This document shows positions 13,801 to 52,100 of a DNA stretch of 64,000 bases, one piece after another. Under the pieces are notes generated by a model, which had not been told where the DNA came from, made no database searches, and was given only the letters and a program-made list of their open reading frames with translations. Within the stretch, counting starts at the first letter, position 1; each line of letters starts with the position of its first letter. The stretch spans positions 501,501 through 565,500 of the forward strand of contig CANXME010002013.1 of the NCBI GenBank assembly GCA_948144175.1, read 5' to 3'. This stretch comes from Closterium sp. NIES-65. Taxonomy: Eukaryota; Streptophyta; Zygnematophyceae; Desmidiales; Closteriaceae. A program made the translations under genes and the position numbers.

Positions 13801-16800
13801 TCCCCACCCGCCAACCCCCATCCCCATCAGTTCAAGAAGGTCAAAGTGGGCAATCGGCGGCTAGGGTTGTACTTCAAGCCGAATTACAGCCGCACCACTC
13901 CCTTCCACCCCTCTCTCCCTTGCACACCCACGCATCTTCTCTCTTTCTCCCTCCCCCGCACCCTTATGCATCCTCCCCACACCCCCTCCCCTGCTCCCCC
14001 CTTCACACACCAGTTCAAAAAGGTCAAAGTGGGCAATCGGCGGCGAGGGTCACACTTCGTCCCGAACTACAATCTCACCACTCCCTTTGCATTCCCTTCC
14101 CTTACTTCCCCCTTTCCTACCCTCCTCTCTCCCTCTCTCCCACACGCACATACGCATCCCTCCCCCCCCCCCCCCCCCCCCCCCCAACACCAGTTCAAGA
14201 AGGTCAAGTTCGGCAATCGGAGACTCGGGTCCTACTTTGTCCCGAATTACAACCTCACCACTCTCACCATCAACAGCGGTTACCTGGTTCAAAGCCCACG
14301 ATATGTGAGTTTACCGAGGGTGCTTTTGTTGGATAGATAGTGTACAGTACATCATACAACCTCACCACTCTCACCATCAACAGCGGCTACCCGGTTGAGA
14401 GCCCACGATATGTGAGTGTAATACATGTGTGAGTGTACCGAATGTGACCCATTTAAGTGCATAACCCACATGGTTTGCACCGAATTACAAGCTCACCACT
14501 CTCACCATCAACAGCGGCTACCTAGAGCCCACGATATGTGAGTTCAATGAAGATGCTTTAATTGCATACACAATGATACTGTACATCACGTTCCATACCG
14601 AGTTTCAACCTTAGTACCCAAGCAGTCAACAGCGGTTACCTCGTTCAGAACCTGCCGTATGTGAGTGTAGTTCATGTGTGAGTGTAGTTCATGTGTGAGT
14701 GTACAAGATGTGATCGTGCATGTACCTTACCTCTTGAGCCGAATTACAACCTCACCACCGAGGTGACTTTTGAGTCGACTCAAAAGTCACCTCGTACCTT
14801 ACCTCTTGAGCCGAATTACAACCTCACCACCGCCACCGTCACCGTCAGCAGCGGCTCCAAGAGCTTCTGGTGTTTGTCCTCCCTAATCCTCTTTTGAGGC
14901 GCCTCAAAAGTAATTACAACCTCACCACCGCCACCGTCACCGTCACCGTCAGCAGCGGCTCCAAGAGCTTTCCGTCCTTTCCCAGGGAAGGAGCAGCAGT
15001 GTTTGTCCTCCCTAATCCTCCCTCATTCTTTCCTTCCTTTCCCATCCTCCACCCGCCATTCTCTTTCCAACAGACCGCCAACCACAAGACAGCGGTTCAC
15101 ACAATGAACCCCAAGTGGGTCACACTCCTCCCTTACACCAACCACACGCCCTAGAGGGTCACACGCCCTAGTTTTCATCGCCCATCCTCTCCATCTCTCA
15201 TGCTCCCGTCCCTATCCCAACAGACTGCCAACCACAAGACAGCGGTTCACACGATGAACCCCAAGCGGGTCCCACCATGCTGTGTCGATTTTTGCGTGGA
15301 CTAAAAATTGGACCCCAAGTGTGCCACGCTCCTCCCTTTTCCCATCCTTACGCTCCCCATCCCTCACAGACCGCCAACCACAAGACAGCCGTCTACACCA
15401 TGAACCCCAAGTGGGTCCCACCATGCTGTGTGTTACTCTCACCCCAATCTTTCCCAACCCTCTTCCTCCATTCCCCTTTCCCCCACAGACCACCAATCAC
15501 AAGACACCGGTTCACACGATGAACCCCAAGTGGTCCACGCTGCTCCTCCCACCTCCCGTGTGTAGCTGCTCATTTCCCCATCCTCCGTCTTCCCACTCTG
15601 CCCTCATTCCCTCTTCCCCACAGACCACCAACCACAAGACAGCGGTCCACACACTGAACTCCAAGTGGGCCACGCTGCTGCCCGTCCCCTCGATAACTGT
15701 GTTCCATTCCCCCATCCTTCCTCCATCCCCCTCGATAACTGTGTTCCATTCCCCCATCCTTCCTCCATCCCCCTCGATAACTGTGTTCCATTCCCCCATC
15801 CTTCCTCCATCCCCCTCGATAACTGTGTTCCATTCCCCCATCCTTCCTCCATCCCCCTCGATAACTGTGTTCCATTCCCCCATCCTTCCTCCATCCCCCT
15901 CGATAACTGTGTTCCATTCCCCCATCCTTCCTCCATCCCCCTCGATAACTGTGTTCCATTCCCCCATCCTTCCTCCATCCCCCTCGATAACTGTGTTCCA
16001 TTCCCCCATCCTTCCTCCATCCCCCTCGATAACTGTGTTCCATTCCCCCATCCTTCCTCCATCCCCCTCGATAACTGTGTTCCATTCCCCATCCTTCCTC
16101 CATCCCCCTCGATAACTGTGTTCCATTCCCCCATCCTTCCTCCATCCCCCTCGATAACTGTGTTCCATTCCCCCATCCTTCCTCCATCCCCCTCGATAAC
16201 TGTGTTCCATTCCCCCATCCTTCCTCCATCCCCCTCGATAACTGTGTTCCATTCCCCCATCCTTCCTCCATCCCCCTCGATAACTGTGTTCCATTCCCCC
16301 ATCCTTCCTCCATCCCCATCCCGCAGACCACCAACCACAAGACAGCGGTCTACACAATGAACCCCAAGTGGGCCACGCTCCTCCCTTACACAGACGCCAT
16401 CGTGTTCAACGCGGGCCACTGGTTCTTCCATCCAGTGAGTGCGTGAGTGCGTGAGTGAGTGAGTGAGGAAGTGAGTGAGTGAGGAAGGGAGCGAGTGAGG
16501 AAGGGAGCGAGTGTCTGTGTTGGTGGACCTGGTGCCTTACAGTGTTATGGCTTATGGCATCACGGCATTAAAGCTCGCCATTCTCTTGCCATACACAGAC
16601 GGCATTGTGTTCAACGCAGGCCACTGGTTCTTCCACCCGGTGAGTGCACGCGTGTTGCTGTGCTTGTATGCGTGTTGCTGTGCTTGTATGCGTGTTGCTG
16701 TGCTTGTATGCGTGTTGCTGTGCTTGTATGCGTGTTGCTGTGCTTGTATGCGTGTTGCTGTGCTTGTATGCGTGTTGCTGTGCTTGTATGCGTGTTGCTG

Positions 16801-49100: not shown

Positions 49101-52100
49101 CCTGCCATGCCATGCCATCCACACGAAAGGAACAAGGGAAGTTGAGACTCAAAATGGTGTAAGGTGGGCAAGGCCCGAAAGGGTAGGATCGAGGTTGCGC
49201 GAAACGTGACAGCTGAAAGATATGGTGCCACTCTACTTTTGAGGCGCCTCAAAAGATGTGGTGCCACTCTACACCTTGCTCTCATATCGTGTCTCTTTAC
49301 AAACACCCTCATTGCAGCCATCCTCCTTACAGTCACCCACCTTGAAGAGTCACCCTCACTACACTCACGCCCTTTACAGCCACCCACAATGGCAATAAAT
49401 GCACCGTACAATCCATAGTTGCAAGAACCATACCTGTCTACAACACCACGCCCCATTACACTCATCCTCCTTACAGTCACCCTCTTTACCACTCACAATG
49501 GCATCGGTCGCACCGTCCACAAACCACTTGGTGATATCCCCCCGATGCACCACCAGCACTCGGCAACCAGCCGCACGAGTCATGTGTGAGTGAGTGCCAG
49601 GCGAATTGGCGAGAGCGGGAGGAGGTAGGGCTGCAAACGCAGCAGAGTCAGAGAAGAGATTTGCCTGCGATGGGTGCATGGTGTATCGGGGTAGGAGGTC
49701 TGAGCGGAAGAGCTCAGCACTGGGGGAGGCATAGGCATGAGGGAGAGGTGGCAGCGATGGGAGGGTTGCTGCTGACGACATGATGATGATTGAATCATGC
49801 TCTCTCTCTGCCTCGGTTCTGTGCCTCCCATGCTGCCTCTGCTGCGATTCTTGAGGCCCCTCAAAAAGGAGTTCAGCACTGAGGGAGGGATAGGCAAGAG
49901 AGAGTGGTGGTGGAGGTGGGAGAGGTGCTGACGACATAATGATGCGATCATGCTCTCTCTCTGCCTCGTCCCCGTGCCTCCCATGCTGGCGCTGCTGCTC
50001 ATCGTGCTGCTCCTGATGGTGCTGCTGGTGCTGTTGCTGCTGCTGCTGCTGCTGCTGCTGCTGCTGCTGCTGCTGCTGCTGCTGCTGCTGCTGCTGCTGC
50101 TGCTGCTGCTGCTGCTGCTGCTGCTGCTGCTGCTGCTGCAGCTGCTTCTGATACTCTTGGTACCGTTGATACTCCTGCCACTGTTGCTGGAAATACAGCT
50201 CTTGCTGCCGCTGCTGCTGCTGCTGCCACTGCTCCTGTTGCACGAGAGCCTGCCGCTCCTGCTGCTCTCGCTCCCAGTCCACCTCACCATCTTCCACTCC
50301 CGCTCCCGTGCCCACTCCCTTCCCTGCACTCCTCCCCCTCTCCCCCCTCTTCTCTGCTCCCTCTCCTCTATGCGCGGTTGTCACATCCTCCATCTCCGTA
50401 TCACCCCTGCCGCTCCCTCCCTCTCCCCGCTCACCTCGAGGCACGAGACACACGAAACCCAGAGCCTTTCCAGCAGCTCCAACCACAACCCCATAGAAGC
50501 TTTGCAGAGCCCACCAACAAGCCCAGAACCTGCCCCTTGCACTTTCCTCACGCTCCCCTTGCACATCAACGTCAACCCCCTCTCCTCCTTCCACACCCAT
50601 CGCTCCCTCCGCAATCTGACGCTCACGAGAAAGAAGCAATGGCTGGGACTCCTGATCCTGGGCCATCTCCACGGATATTTCCTCAGGTGCTTCTTCAGAT
50701 GATTCTTCAGGTGGTCCCTCAGGTGGTTCCTCAGGTGCCACGTCAGATGCCTCACGCGGATGCAGAAGATGAGTTGAGAGAAGATGGGAAGGGGCACGGT
50801 AGTGGTGGTGGTTGTGGTAGTAAGGAGCGCTAGCAGCAAGAGCATGCACCCCGATGTCTCTGCCCACCCCTGCAGTGCTCCACTTTGGCTTTGTGCTCCT
50901 AACCGGCCTTGTGCCCCTAATAGGCCCGTTCAAGCTTGTGCTTGGTCTATTCGGCAGGCGCCACGCTGCTGATGCTGCTGCTGTTGCTCCTGCTGCTCTT
51001 GTTCCTGCTGATGCTGCTCCAACGCTTGCTGCTGCTGGCACCGCTGCTGCTGGTGCCCCAACGTCCCAACGCCGTCCCTGCCGCTTCCTTTCTGAGCCTT
51101 TCCCCTCCCTCCCCTCCATCTCTCCCTCCTCACTCCACTCTCCTTTGCCACCCATAGCGGAAAATTCCCTCGCTTCCTTGCCCTCTCTCTTTCGTTTCAT
51201 CTCCTCCACCCCTCCCCCTCTGACAACACCCCCCCCAGAAACAGTAGAATCCAGAGGTCGCCCTTCAGTCTTATTGTCTTCTTCAGTCTCCAGCCGTTCT
51301 TCAACCTCCCTTCTGCCTGCAATCCCTGTACGCTCTCCTATGGCCTGTGACCCTTCTTCGTTGTGGGGGCGCACTTCGCGCCCTTCAGTCTGACTCTCTT
51401 CTTCACTCTCTGTAATTTCTGTGCGTTCTTCAGTCTCCCAGGAACCCTCTACTTCGTCCCCTTTGCCAAAAATCTCAGCAAAAGTCGCAGCAAATCCAGC
51501 CTTTGATCTCTCTGCCTTCCCTGCAGCAACTCTCGCCTCAACCACCGCTTTCCCAGCAGCTTCCGCAGCAAAAACAGCCTCTGCAGCAGCGGCTGTTGCC
51601 TCCGCCTTGGCGGCTGCCGCCCTGCCAGCCGCAGATGCTGCCAAACGCTGCAGTTCCGACGCGGTTTCTGCTGCTTCTGCTGCCTCTGCAGCAGCTGTTG
51701 CAACCTCTTGGCGCAGAGAGGCGAGGTTGGCGTATGCAGCTTGTGCAGACCCTGCTCTAGAAGAGAGTTCAGGACGAGAGGGAGGAGGAGGAATGGGAGG
51801 AGGAAAGGCAGGAGGAGGGGCAGGAGGGAGAGGTGGAAGGGAGTAGGGGTATGGAGTAGCAGGGAGGTAAGGCGGCGAAAGAGGAGGAAACGAGGGAGGG
51901 ATAGGAGGATCGGTGGTCTTGTCGTCAGAACTGCTCCTGCTGCTAGGTGACGTCTGGCAGTCAAAGAACTCGCAAAGATCGTCTTCAGAACCATCTTCGA
52001 ACTCGCCCAGAGCAGCAGCAGCCTTGCCGTGAGCATCGGGAAAAGCAGCAGGCCTGCCGTGAGCAACGGGAGAAGCAGCCTCGCCGCGAGGAAGCCTTTT

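Follow-up and report, generated by a model that had tools for sequence, protein, structure and literature searches.

The closest in kind of the described systems to the repeats reported here are the mobile palindromes of organelles, namely the GC clusters of yeast mitochondria, the double-hairpin elements and the palindromes of algal plastids. In a 64,000-nucleotide stretch of the genome of the alga Closterium sp. NIES-65 (contig CANXME010002013.1, positions 501,501 to 565,500; hereafter the window), a family of palindromes with TTTTGAG/CTCAAAA arms recurs between direct copies of local sequence, an arrangement that we denote X-P-X, where P is the palindrome and X the copied stretch. Like these palindromes, the organellar ones are ultrashort, dispersed, non-coding and thought to be mobile (PMC4478555, PMC7043297). 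The four commonest yeast mitochondrial GC clusters have AG or ACT repeats on either side (PMC4478555), and the plastid palindromes of chlamydomonadalean algae have AT-rich stems and 3-nt loops, are indel hotspots and are linked to break repair, as we propose for the present family (PMC7043297). The Closterium palindromes differ from all of these in lying in nuclear DNA, in having a loop that is absent or a single base, and in being flanked in the window by copies of about 11-136 bp. In place of the 2-3-bp AG or ACT direct repeats of GC clusters, 16 sites carry flanking copies of 14-136 bp, and the neighborhood is not that of an organelle genome, since pieces of PC-esterase and condensin (Cnd2) genes lie nearby, with gaps that by eye look GT-AG-like, in an 874-Mb assembly.

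The flanking copies recall a different system. Repair is known to produce tandem duplications when opposite strands are nicked close together and both overhangs are filled in (patch-mediated repair; CST and Pol alpha-primase fill-in), and the duplicated stretch between the nicks is often shorter than 100 bp (PMC8355091). Local direct copies likewise abut the junction in Closterium, and in one case the ancestral absence of the insert can be read from paralogous exon copies. Where the described duplications, as far as is known, have no filler or a local one, here one dispersed palindrome family recurs at the junction; what is new is that the junction insert belongs to a single genome-wide palindromic family. 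Studies in rice and Arabidopsis reportedly address the same theme of staggered-break tandem duplications.

Miniature inverted-repeat transposable elements (MITEs) and other terminal-inverted-repeat transposons are characterized by inverted symmetry, high copy number and flanking direct repeats, with a fixed target duplication. The Closterium family shares the symmetry, the copy number and the direct repeats on both sides; it departs from MITEs in that its target duplication varies about tenfold in length, its centre rather than its ends is constant (the outer arms being variably truncated across 34 aligned sites), and the whole unit measures about 18-34 bp. Target-primed retroelements (long interspersed nuclear elements and Penelope-like elements) have variable, sometimes long target duplications and end truncation, as found here, but the present insert is palindromic, has no open reading frame, is truncated on both sides and carries no tail that we noticed. 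Thus, the family fits none of the systems compared, MITEs and retroelements being compared by their generally known features, and among the best matches in the open-access literature (subscription journals and preprints lay outside the scope) there was no nuclear family of such kind. We regard it as new as a genomic repeat; if it does spread through break repair, as proposed below, it would be a mobile unit smaller than any nuclear transposon known to us.

The exact motif TTTTGAG-N(2-8)-CTCAAAA was found 11 times in the window and not once in 100 dinucleotide-preserving shuffles of the same 64 kb. Allowing at most two mismatches in the arms and 3-6 bases at the centre gives 25 places, in good agreement with the roughly 24 palindromes that a preliminary description had placed between 14.7 and 49.9 kb, and each of the centre variants that it listed (GCGC, TCGA, AATT, ACGT, TC-T-GA and AC-T-GT) is present. 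The same description had found none clearly outside that region, which is correct within the window for sites with at most one mismatch (all within 14,768-49,866), but the family is not local: a whole-genome scan returned 30,602 exact places, compared with 15 for the reversed control, in an assembly of 874,075,685 bases and 2400 contigs. Among the matches listed genome-wide are regular arrays, with five copies spaced at 37 bp and five at 53 bp on one contig (C6) and four at 42 bp on another (C10), which look as if X-P units had been amplified later (Table 1). In a sample of 30 stretches of 10 kb from elsewhere in the genome, the choice of which was guided partly by earlier matches, 16 places with at most two mismatches were spread over 8 stretches. 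Most of the stretches L009-L027 are without the motif, and several of the stretches carry copia-like polyprotein sequence (judged by eye on short stretches), so the palindromes may concentrate in gene-rich DNA.

The anatomy of the repeat was read from an alignment of 34 sites, comprising 22 of the 23 window sites used for the duplication test below (without 49140) and 12 of the 16 found elsewhere (without four chance-like ones). The TTTTGAG/CTCAAAA core noted earlier stands, yet the real arms are longer, with the full consensus GAGGTGACTTTTGAG and a weak outward consensus, GAGGTGAC-TTTTGAG, that is identical on both sides. Standard copies measure about 18-34 bp in all, with no loop or a single base at the centre, and the points at which the arms are truncated differ between left and right while the centre is retained, which partly reflects the way in which the sites were selected. 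In 28 of the 34 sites one centre dinucleotide matches the other, compared with 23.4% when halves are paired at random, and two of the six non-matching centres owe the mismatch to a single C-to-T or G-to-A change at CG. The earlier impression that one half had been copied from the other is thus borne out, and the idea that each end was primed separately from a mixed template pool (23% matching expected) is disfavored.

The arm types bear on whether the copies descend from one fixed sequence. The GAGGTGAC arm is present in full or almost in full at 14768, L028:2694, L017:7289 (left side) and L037:594 (right side), and a second arm type, ACGTGAAAGAAGGAGTG, occurs at 48278, with the left arm of L028:4559 alike at 13 of 17 positions as counted by eye. 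Self-complementarity is not universal, since 46434 and 47040, two unrelated sites, have in common a non-palindromic variant, TTTTGGGGCGCCTCAAAA, which points to variant copying, and 48278 deviates in its 17-bp outer arm and in five bases inserted into its right arm. The palindromic word therefore seems, from such alignments, to have lineages, i.e., a few types with their own outer arms, and because these arms are common to sites of different age, copies seem to descend from earlier copies within a type. The suggestion that the copies do not all stem from one fixed sequence is, on this evidence, half right.

To relate the palindromes to duplications, up to 220 bases to the left of each site were aligned with up to 220 bases to its right (an earlier pass used 400 bases). 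The 23 window sites tested were the 25 places less one that looks like a chance match (15290) and two that are locally duplicated from neighboring copies (18873 and 37147), plus 49140, which has a 1-base centre. Because the stretch is rich in tandem repeats, the null consisted of 4000 random positions from the same regions, with tandem arrays masked and motif neighborhoods excluded. An adjusted alignment score of at least 25 was reached by 15/23 sites and by 21% of random positions, and a score of at least 25 with no more than 15 unduplicated bases besides the core by 11/23 sites and 2.0% of random positions. With the arrays left in, which raises the background, the corresponding figures were 17/23 against 41% and 11/23 against 11.6%. 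At the clearest sites (e.g., 49237, 48578, 47040 and 14768) the insert is bounded to the base. The sites that score below 25 are 16990 (copies of 11 bp only), 18830 (where the palindrome itself is duplicated), 29660 (a weak case with 21% divergence), 36757 and 36810 (which lie together within one outer duplication), 38784 (whose duplication is gone after microsatellite masking), and 47432 and 49140, where no duplication was detected. By eye, short extra duplications are visible at 16990 (11 bp) and 37109 (20 bp). Flanking duplications are therefore real, but at about 15-17 sites, a little fewer than the 20 or more first proposed. In the window the duplications are about 11 to 136 bp long, and in stretch L028 they reach about 190 bp, a spread as wide as random pairs of nicks would give.

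The association extends beyond the window and is specific to the motif. Elsewhere, a duplication score of at least 25 was reached at 11 of the 16 candidate sites (these 11 lie on contigs C3, C150 and C200), and 9/16 combine this score with no more than 45 extra bases, compared with 10.8% of random positions in the site-bearing stretches, a null that includes positions near motif sites and is, if anything, too high. Under the same 45-base limit, control palindromes of other sequence (simple repeats and motif-like words excluded) gave 0/13 in the window and 1/14 elsewhere, which rules out that any palindrome attracts duplications and upholds the proposed link between this family and duplication junctions. 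In a hand-made list of 39 gapped duplications, from which arrays and overlapping rows were left out, 16 gaps hold the motif, intact or decayed, and in 14 of them the palindrome is stronger than in shuffled gaps (p<=0.032), which the way of finding them would lead one to expect. None of the 23 motif-free gaps in that list is palindromic above chance (p<0.05), so the idea that all gapped duplications once had a palindromic filler is not supported. Half insertions, with one arm between copies, were likewise rejected for the window, where none of the six single TTTTGAG or CTCAAAA words has a duplication (one of the six, 49148, belongs to site 49140). Elsewhere, at least one single arm (L010:3354) sits between 66-bp copies. 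Many of the other single-arm matches there come from a satellite in L019 and L021, with a unit of about 371 bp, which contains TTTTGAG by coincidence and inflates the single-arm controls.

Palindrome and duplication appear to be of similar age. At 16 sites, 92 of 911 aligned positions (10.1%) distinguish the two duplicated copies. The change expected in each copy, and in an insert of the same age, is thus about 5.0%, and the conserved arms at these sites have changed at 10 of 224 positions (4.5%), a figure biased downward because the sites were chosen by motif similarity. Arm decay is thus about as expected from a joint origin of palindrome and duplication, which is agreement and not proof. 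The divergence between copies ranges from 0 to 21%, indicating that the process has been long-running.

The ancestral state could be read at one site, 14768, where the palindrome lies in an exon copy of a PC-esterase gene (another exon, apparently of the same gene, matches PF13839 with an E-value of 6.9e-14). Fuzzy matching located the core of this exon 12 times, and three of these copies belong to the two insertion events at 14768 and beside it. The other nine have no palindrome in the 60 bases after the core; three of them (14238, 14350 and 14477) run on into the same exon sequence that lies downstream of the right-hand copy, and six pass into other sequence. Given these palindrome-free paralogous exons, it is most likely that both the palindrome and the second copy are additions to a site that had neither.

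How such an insert might arise is a separate question. We tentatively favor the explanation that the family is a dispersed ultrashort nuclear palindromic repeat (core TTTTGAG-xy/y'x'-CTCAAAA, arms approximately GAGGTGACTTTTGAG, a few types with GCGC, TCGA, AATT or ACGT centres) that spreads as filler in break repair. Opposite-strand nicks roughly 10 to less than 200 bp apart would produce a staggered break, and fill-in of both overhangs would duplicate the stretch X. One or both 3' ends would then anneal by a few bases to the arm of an existing palindrome copy and copy up to or through its centre, and the two copied tails could pair with each other, because the copied word is its own complement, and be joined to give X-P-X. 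Consistent with the annealing step, the target ends at those 25 junctions (12 left, 13 right) whose insert stops inside the consensus arm extend that arm by a total of 28 bases, compared with 11.8 for ends shuffled among sites and 8.2 for random ends; the table of junctions was made by hand, so it is taken only as suggesting that joining or priming proceeds via short matches between target and arm. A duplicating form of repair and a minimal mobile palindrome with long target duplications had been put forward as separate candidates. Each is tenable, and the evidence suggests that they may be one process, in which a dispersed palindrome is copied as filler at staggered breaks.

What advantage the palindrome would have as filler may lie in its acting as a splint that makes any two ends complementary. 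A bolder form of this idea, possible but on the doubtful side, is that a gene-free palindrome multiplies in the nuclear genome solely through its self-complementarity, as a universal end-joining bridge, so that each staggered break mended in this way would leave a new palindrome copy and a tandem duplication. The footprint, if this is true, would be copies in the tens of thousands, together with numerous short duplications of exons. Should the break-repair explanation prove true, the family would be a replicating DNA word of about 18-34 bp that has no enzyme of its own and is spread by host break repair, and it would supply a built-in marker of staggered-break repair events of all ages. The origin of short tandem duplications and fillers would become countable, with potentially thousands of datable events in one genome, and part of the serial exon duplication seen here might be explained.

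Several observations weigh against the break-repair explanation. The region is duplication-prone, with 21% of random positions passing the loose score when arrays are masked and 41% when they are not, and 16.2% of random positions pass the 45-base limit when all fetched stretches except two satellites are considered. Eight of the 23 window sites and five of the 16 elsewhere (L014, L024 twice, L027 and L028:6134) score below 25, although the matches in L014, L024 (both) and L027 look like chance. The junction table is biased toward cases that fit the consensus arm. A donor copy was identified for no insertion, no donor search having been made, and the core is the same everywhere, while ordinary templated filler derives from nearby sequence; the dominance of one word is explained only by the unproven splint idea, and an enzyme-specific element would likewise give centres of a single type. 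Duplications without a palindrome occur too, among them a young one at 17856-18190 with 146-bp copies, 2 differences and a 43-base filler from outside the family. A gap between 55-bp copies at 13077-13139 reads AGTTGCAACT followed by AAAAGTC and is not palindromic above chance (p 0.19); it is possibly a decayed or divergent family member lying outside the region first described.

The main rival to repair filler, which we regard as a serious but rather unlikely alternative, is a non-autonomous element driven by an enzyme: a short palindromic DNA or RNA would be inserted, with truncated ends, by a reverse transcriptase or a transposase whose cuts in the two strands are widely separated, so that target duplications would be long and variable. 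An insertion with a target duplication classically has the form X-P-X, some target-primed retroelements produce target duplications of more than 100 bp, and a specific, self-matched insert that comes in a few types with common arms and in huge copy number would suit such an element. However, a search of 324 kb with extended arms revealed no longer family member (a few sequences resembling one arm, in L015, L018, L021 and L022, were taken as chance), the duplication length spans an order of magnitude, and it is the centre that is constant and not the outer end, the reverse of a terminal-repeat element. Even if this rival is correct, the family would be an undescribed element with unusually long target duplications. 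We think it unlikely that the palindromes are instead remnants of larger DNA transposons, whose two terminal inverted repeats were joined end to end (through a circle junction, hairpin ends or internal deletion) and captured at breaks. Such an origin would account for the symmetry about a 0- or 1-base centre and for family-specific arms (GAGGTGAC; ACGTGAAAGAAGGAGTG) common to several loci, but a terminal-repeat transposon has a fixed target-duplication length, which here varies from about 11 to 136 bp, and a full element with these ends was not found in the same 324 kb.

Less probable still is that the palindromes came first and then promoted local duplication through hairpins, fork stalling or template switching. 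The window region is rich in tandem duplications, the palindrome at 18830 was duplicated along with its flank, and short palindromes are described as mutational hotspots in an algal plastid (PMC7043297). For X-P-X to arise in this way, however, the duplication would have to stop at either edge of P and leave P itself out, and other palindromes are almost without such duplications, while the paralogous exons lack a palindrome at the corresponding place. An artefact of library construction or assembly, with linker-like oligonucleotides joining diverged allelic ends, had also been raised, as a short constant word between near-copies does resemble an adaptor. It is effectively excluded by the 30,602 places across 2400 contigs, by copies of graded age with mutated arms, by the empty paralogous sites, and by the regular arrays (spacing 37, 42 and 53), the several centre types and the locus-specific extensions. 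A viral or bacterial source was rejected as well, given that no viral contig has the 20-base arm pattern and that the 18-mer occurs in 1 viral and 7 prokaryote contigs, when about 4 would be expected by chance in the prokaryote collection by our own arithmetic.

Table 1. Palindrome sites in the window, and palindrome arrays elsewhere in the assembly.
Feature	Position	Spacing (bp)	Flanking copies or source
Longest standard insert AGGTGAC-TTTTGAGTCGACTCAAAA-GTCACCTC, TCGA type, 33 bases	14761..14793		identical 39-bp copies 14722-14760, 14794-14832
GCGC palindrome + GT	14892..14911		copies 14814-14891, 14912-15020
ACGT palindrome	16990..17009		11-bp copies (10/11)
AATT insert	17146..17174		61-bp copies 17085-17145, 17175-17235, 3 differences
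TCGA palindrome within 43-bp tandem duplication carrying the palindrome along (two copies)	18830..18890
AATT insert	20056..20086		~70-bp copies 19986-20055, 20087-20157
Decayed GCGC copy beside 21%-diverged duplication, between condensin (Cnd2) gene pieces; weak case	29660..29722
TC-T-GA type	36091..36113		copies 35962-36090, 36114-36227, 16% substitutions
Two GCGC palindromes in one outer duplication	36757..36827		outer duplication 36718-36756 / 36837-36876
AATT palindromes as X-P-X-P-X, X = 20 bp	37109..37164
Decayed TCGA type	38622..38650		copies 38508-38621, 38651-38777, 15% substitutions
TCGA copy adjoining TCACA microsatellite; duplication lost on array masking	38784..38801
GCGC insert	39518..39540		41-bp copies 39477-39517, 39541-39581
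Variant TTTTGGGGCGCCTCAAAA inside 1372-aa reading frame	46414..46458		57-bp copies 46357-46413, 46459-46515
Variant TTTTGGGGCGCCTCAAAA, two extra bases	47038..47057		44-bp copies 46994-47037, 47058-47101
AC-T-GT type	47504..47554		35-bp copies 47469-47503, 47555-47589, 17%
ACGT type, 17-bp outer arms ACGTGAAAGAAGGAGTG, 5-base right-arm insertion	48259..48317		between 27-bp copies
GCGC type + one extra C	48577..48595		identical 14-bp copies
Minimal case: exactly TTTTGAGGCGCCTCAAAA (18 bp)	49237..49254		18-bp copies 49219-49236, 49255-49272
Decayed GCGC type	49846..49868		copies 49710-49845, 49869-49998, 16%
Palindrome tandem array	G000:C6:107990-108155	37	genome-wide motif listing
Palindrome tandem array	G000:C6:131439-131668	53	genome-wide motif listing
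Palindrome tandem array	G000:C10:378176-378319	42	genome-wide motif listing

The surroundings of the palindromes in the window are themselves repetitive. The PC-esterase (PF13839) gene at 11900-18700 (+), of a family that is prominent in plants, has short exons repeated in series, the exon core that occurs 12 times being one example, and includes several copies of an exon reading TNHKTAVxTMNPKWxTLLPYTD. Together with the pieces of condensin Cnd2 and of a protein with two EF-Ts regions, it suggests by gene content a eukaryote of the green lineage. No RNA families or tRNAs were found in the window. Long, near-perfect minisatellites lie at 15686-16317 (42-bp unit), 16650-16931 (20-bp), 22293-22901 (14-bp) and 40286-41619 (31-bp). 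A reading frame at 20327-21796 (-) contains two EF-Ts regions and may encode a plastid-type protein.

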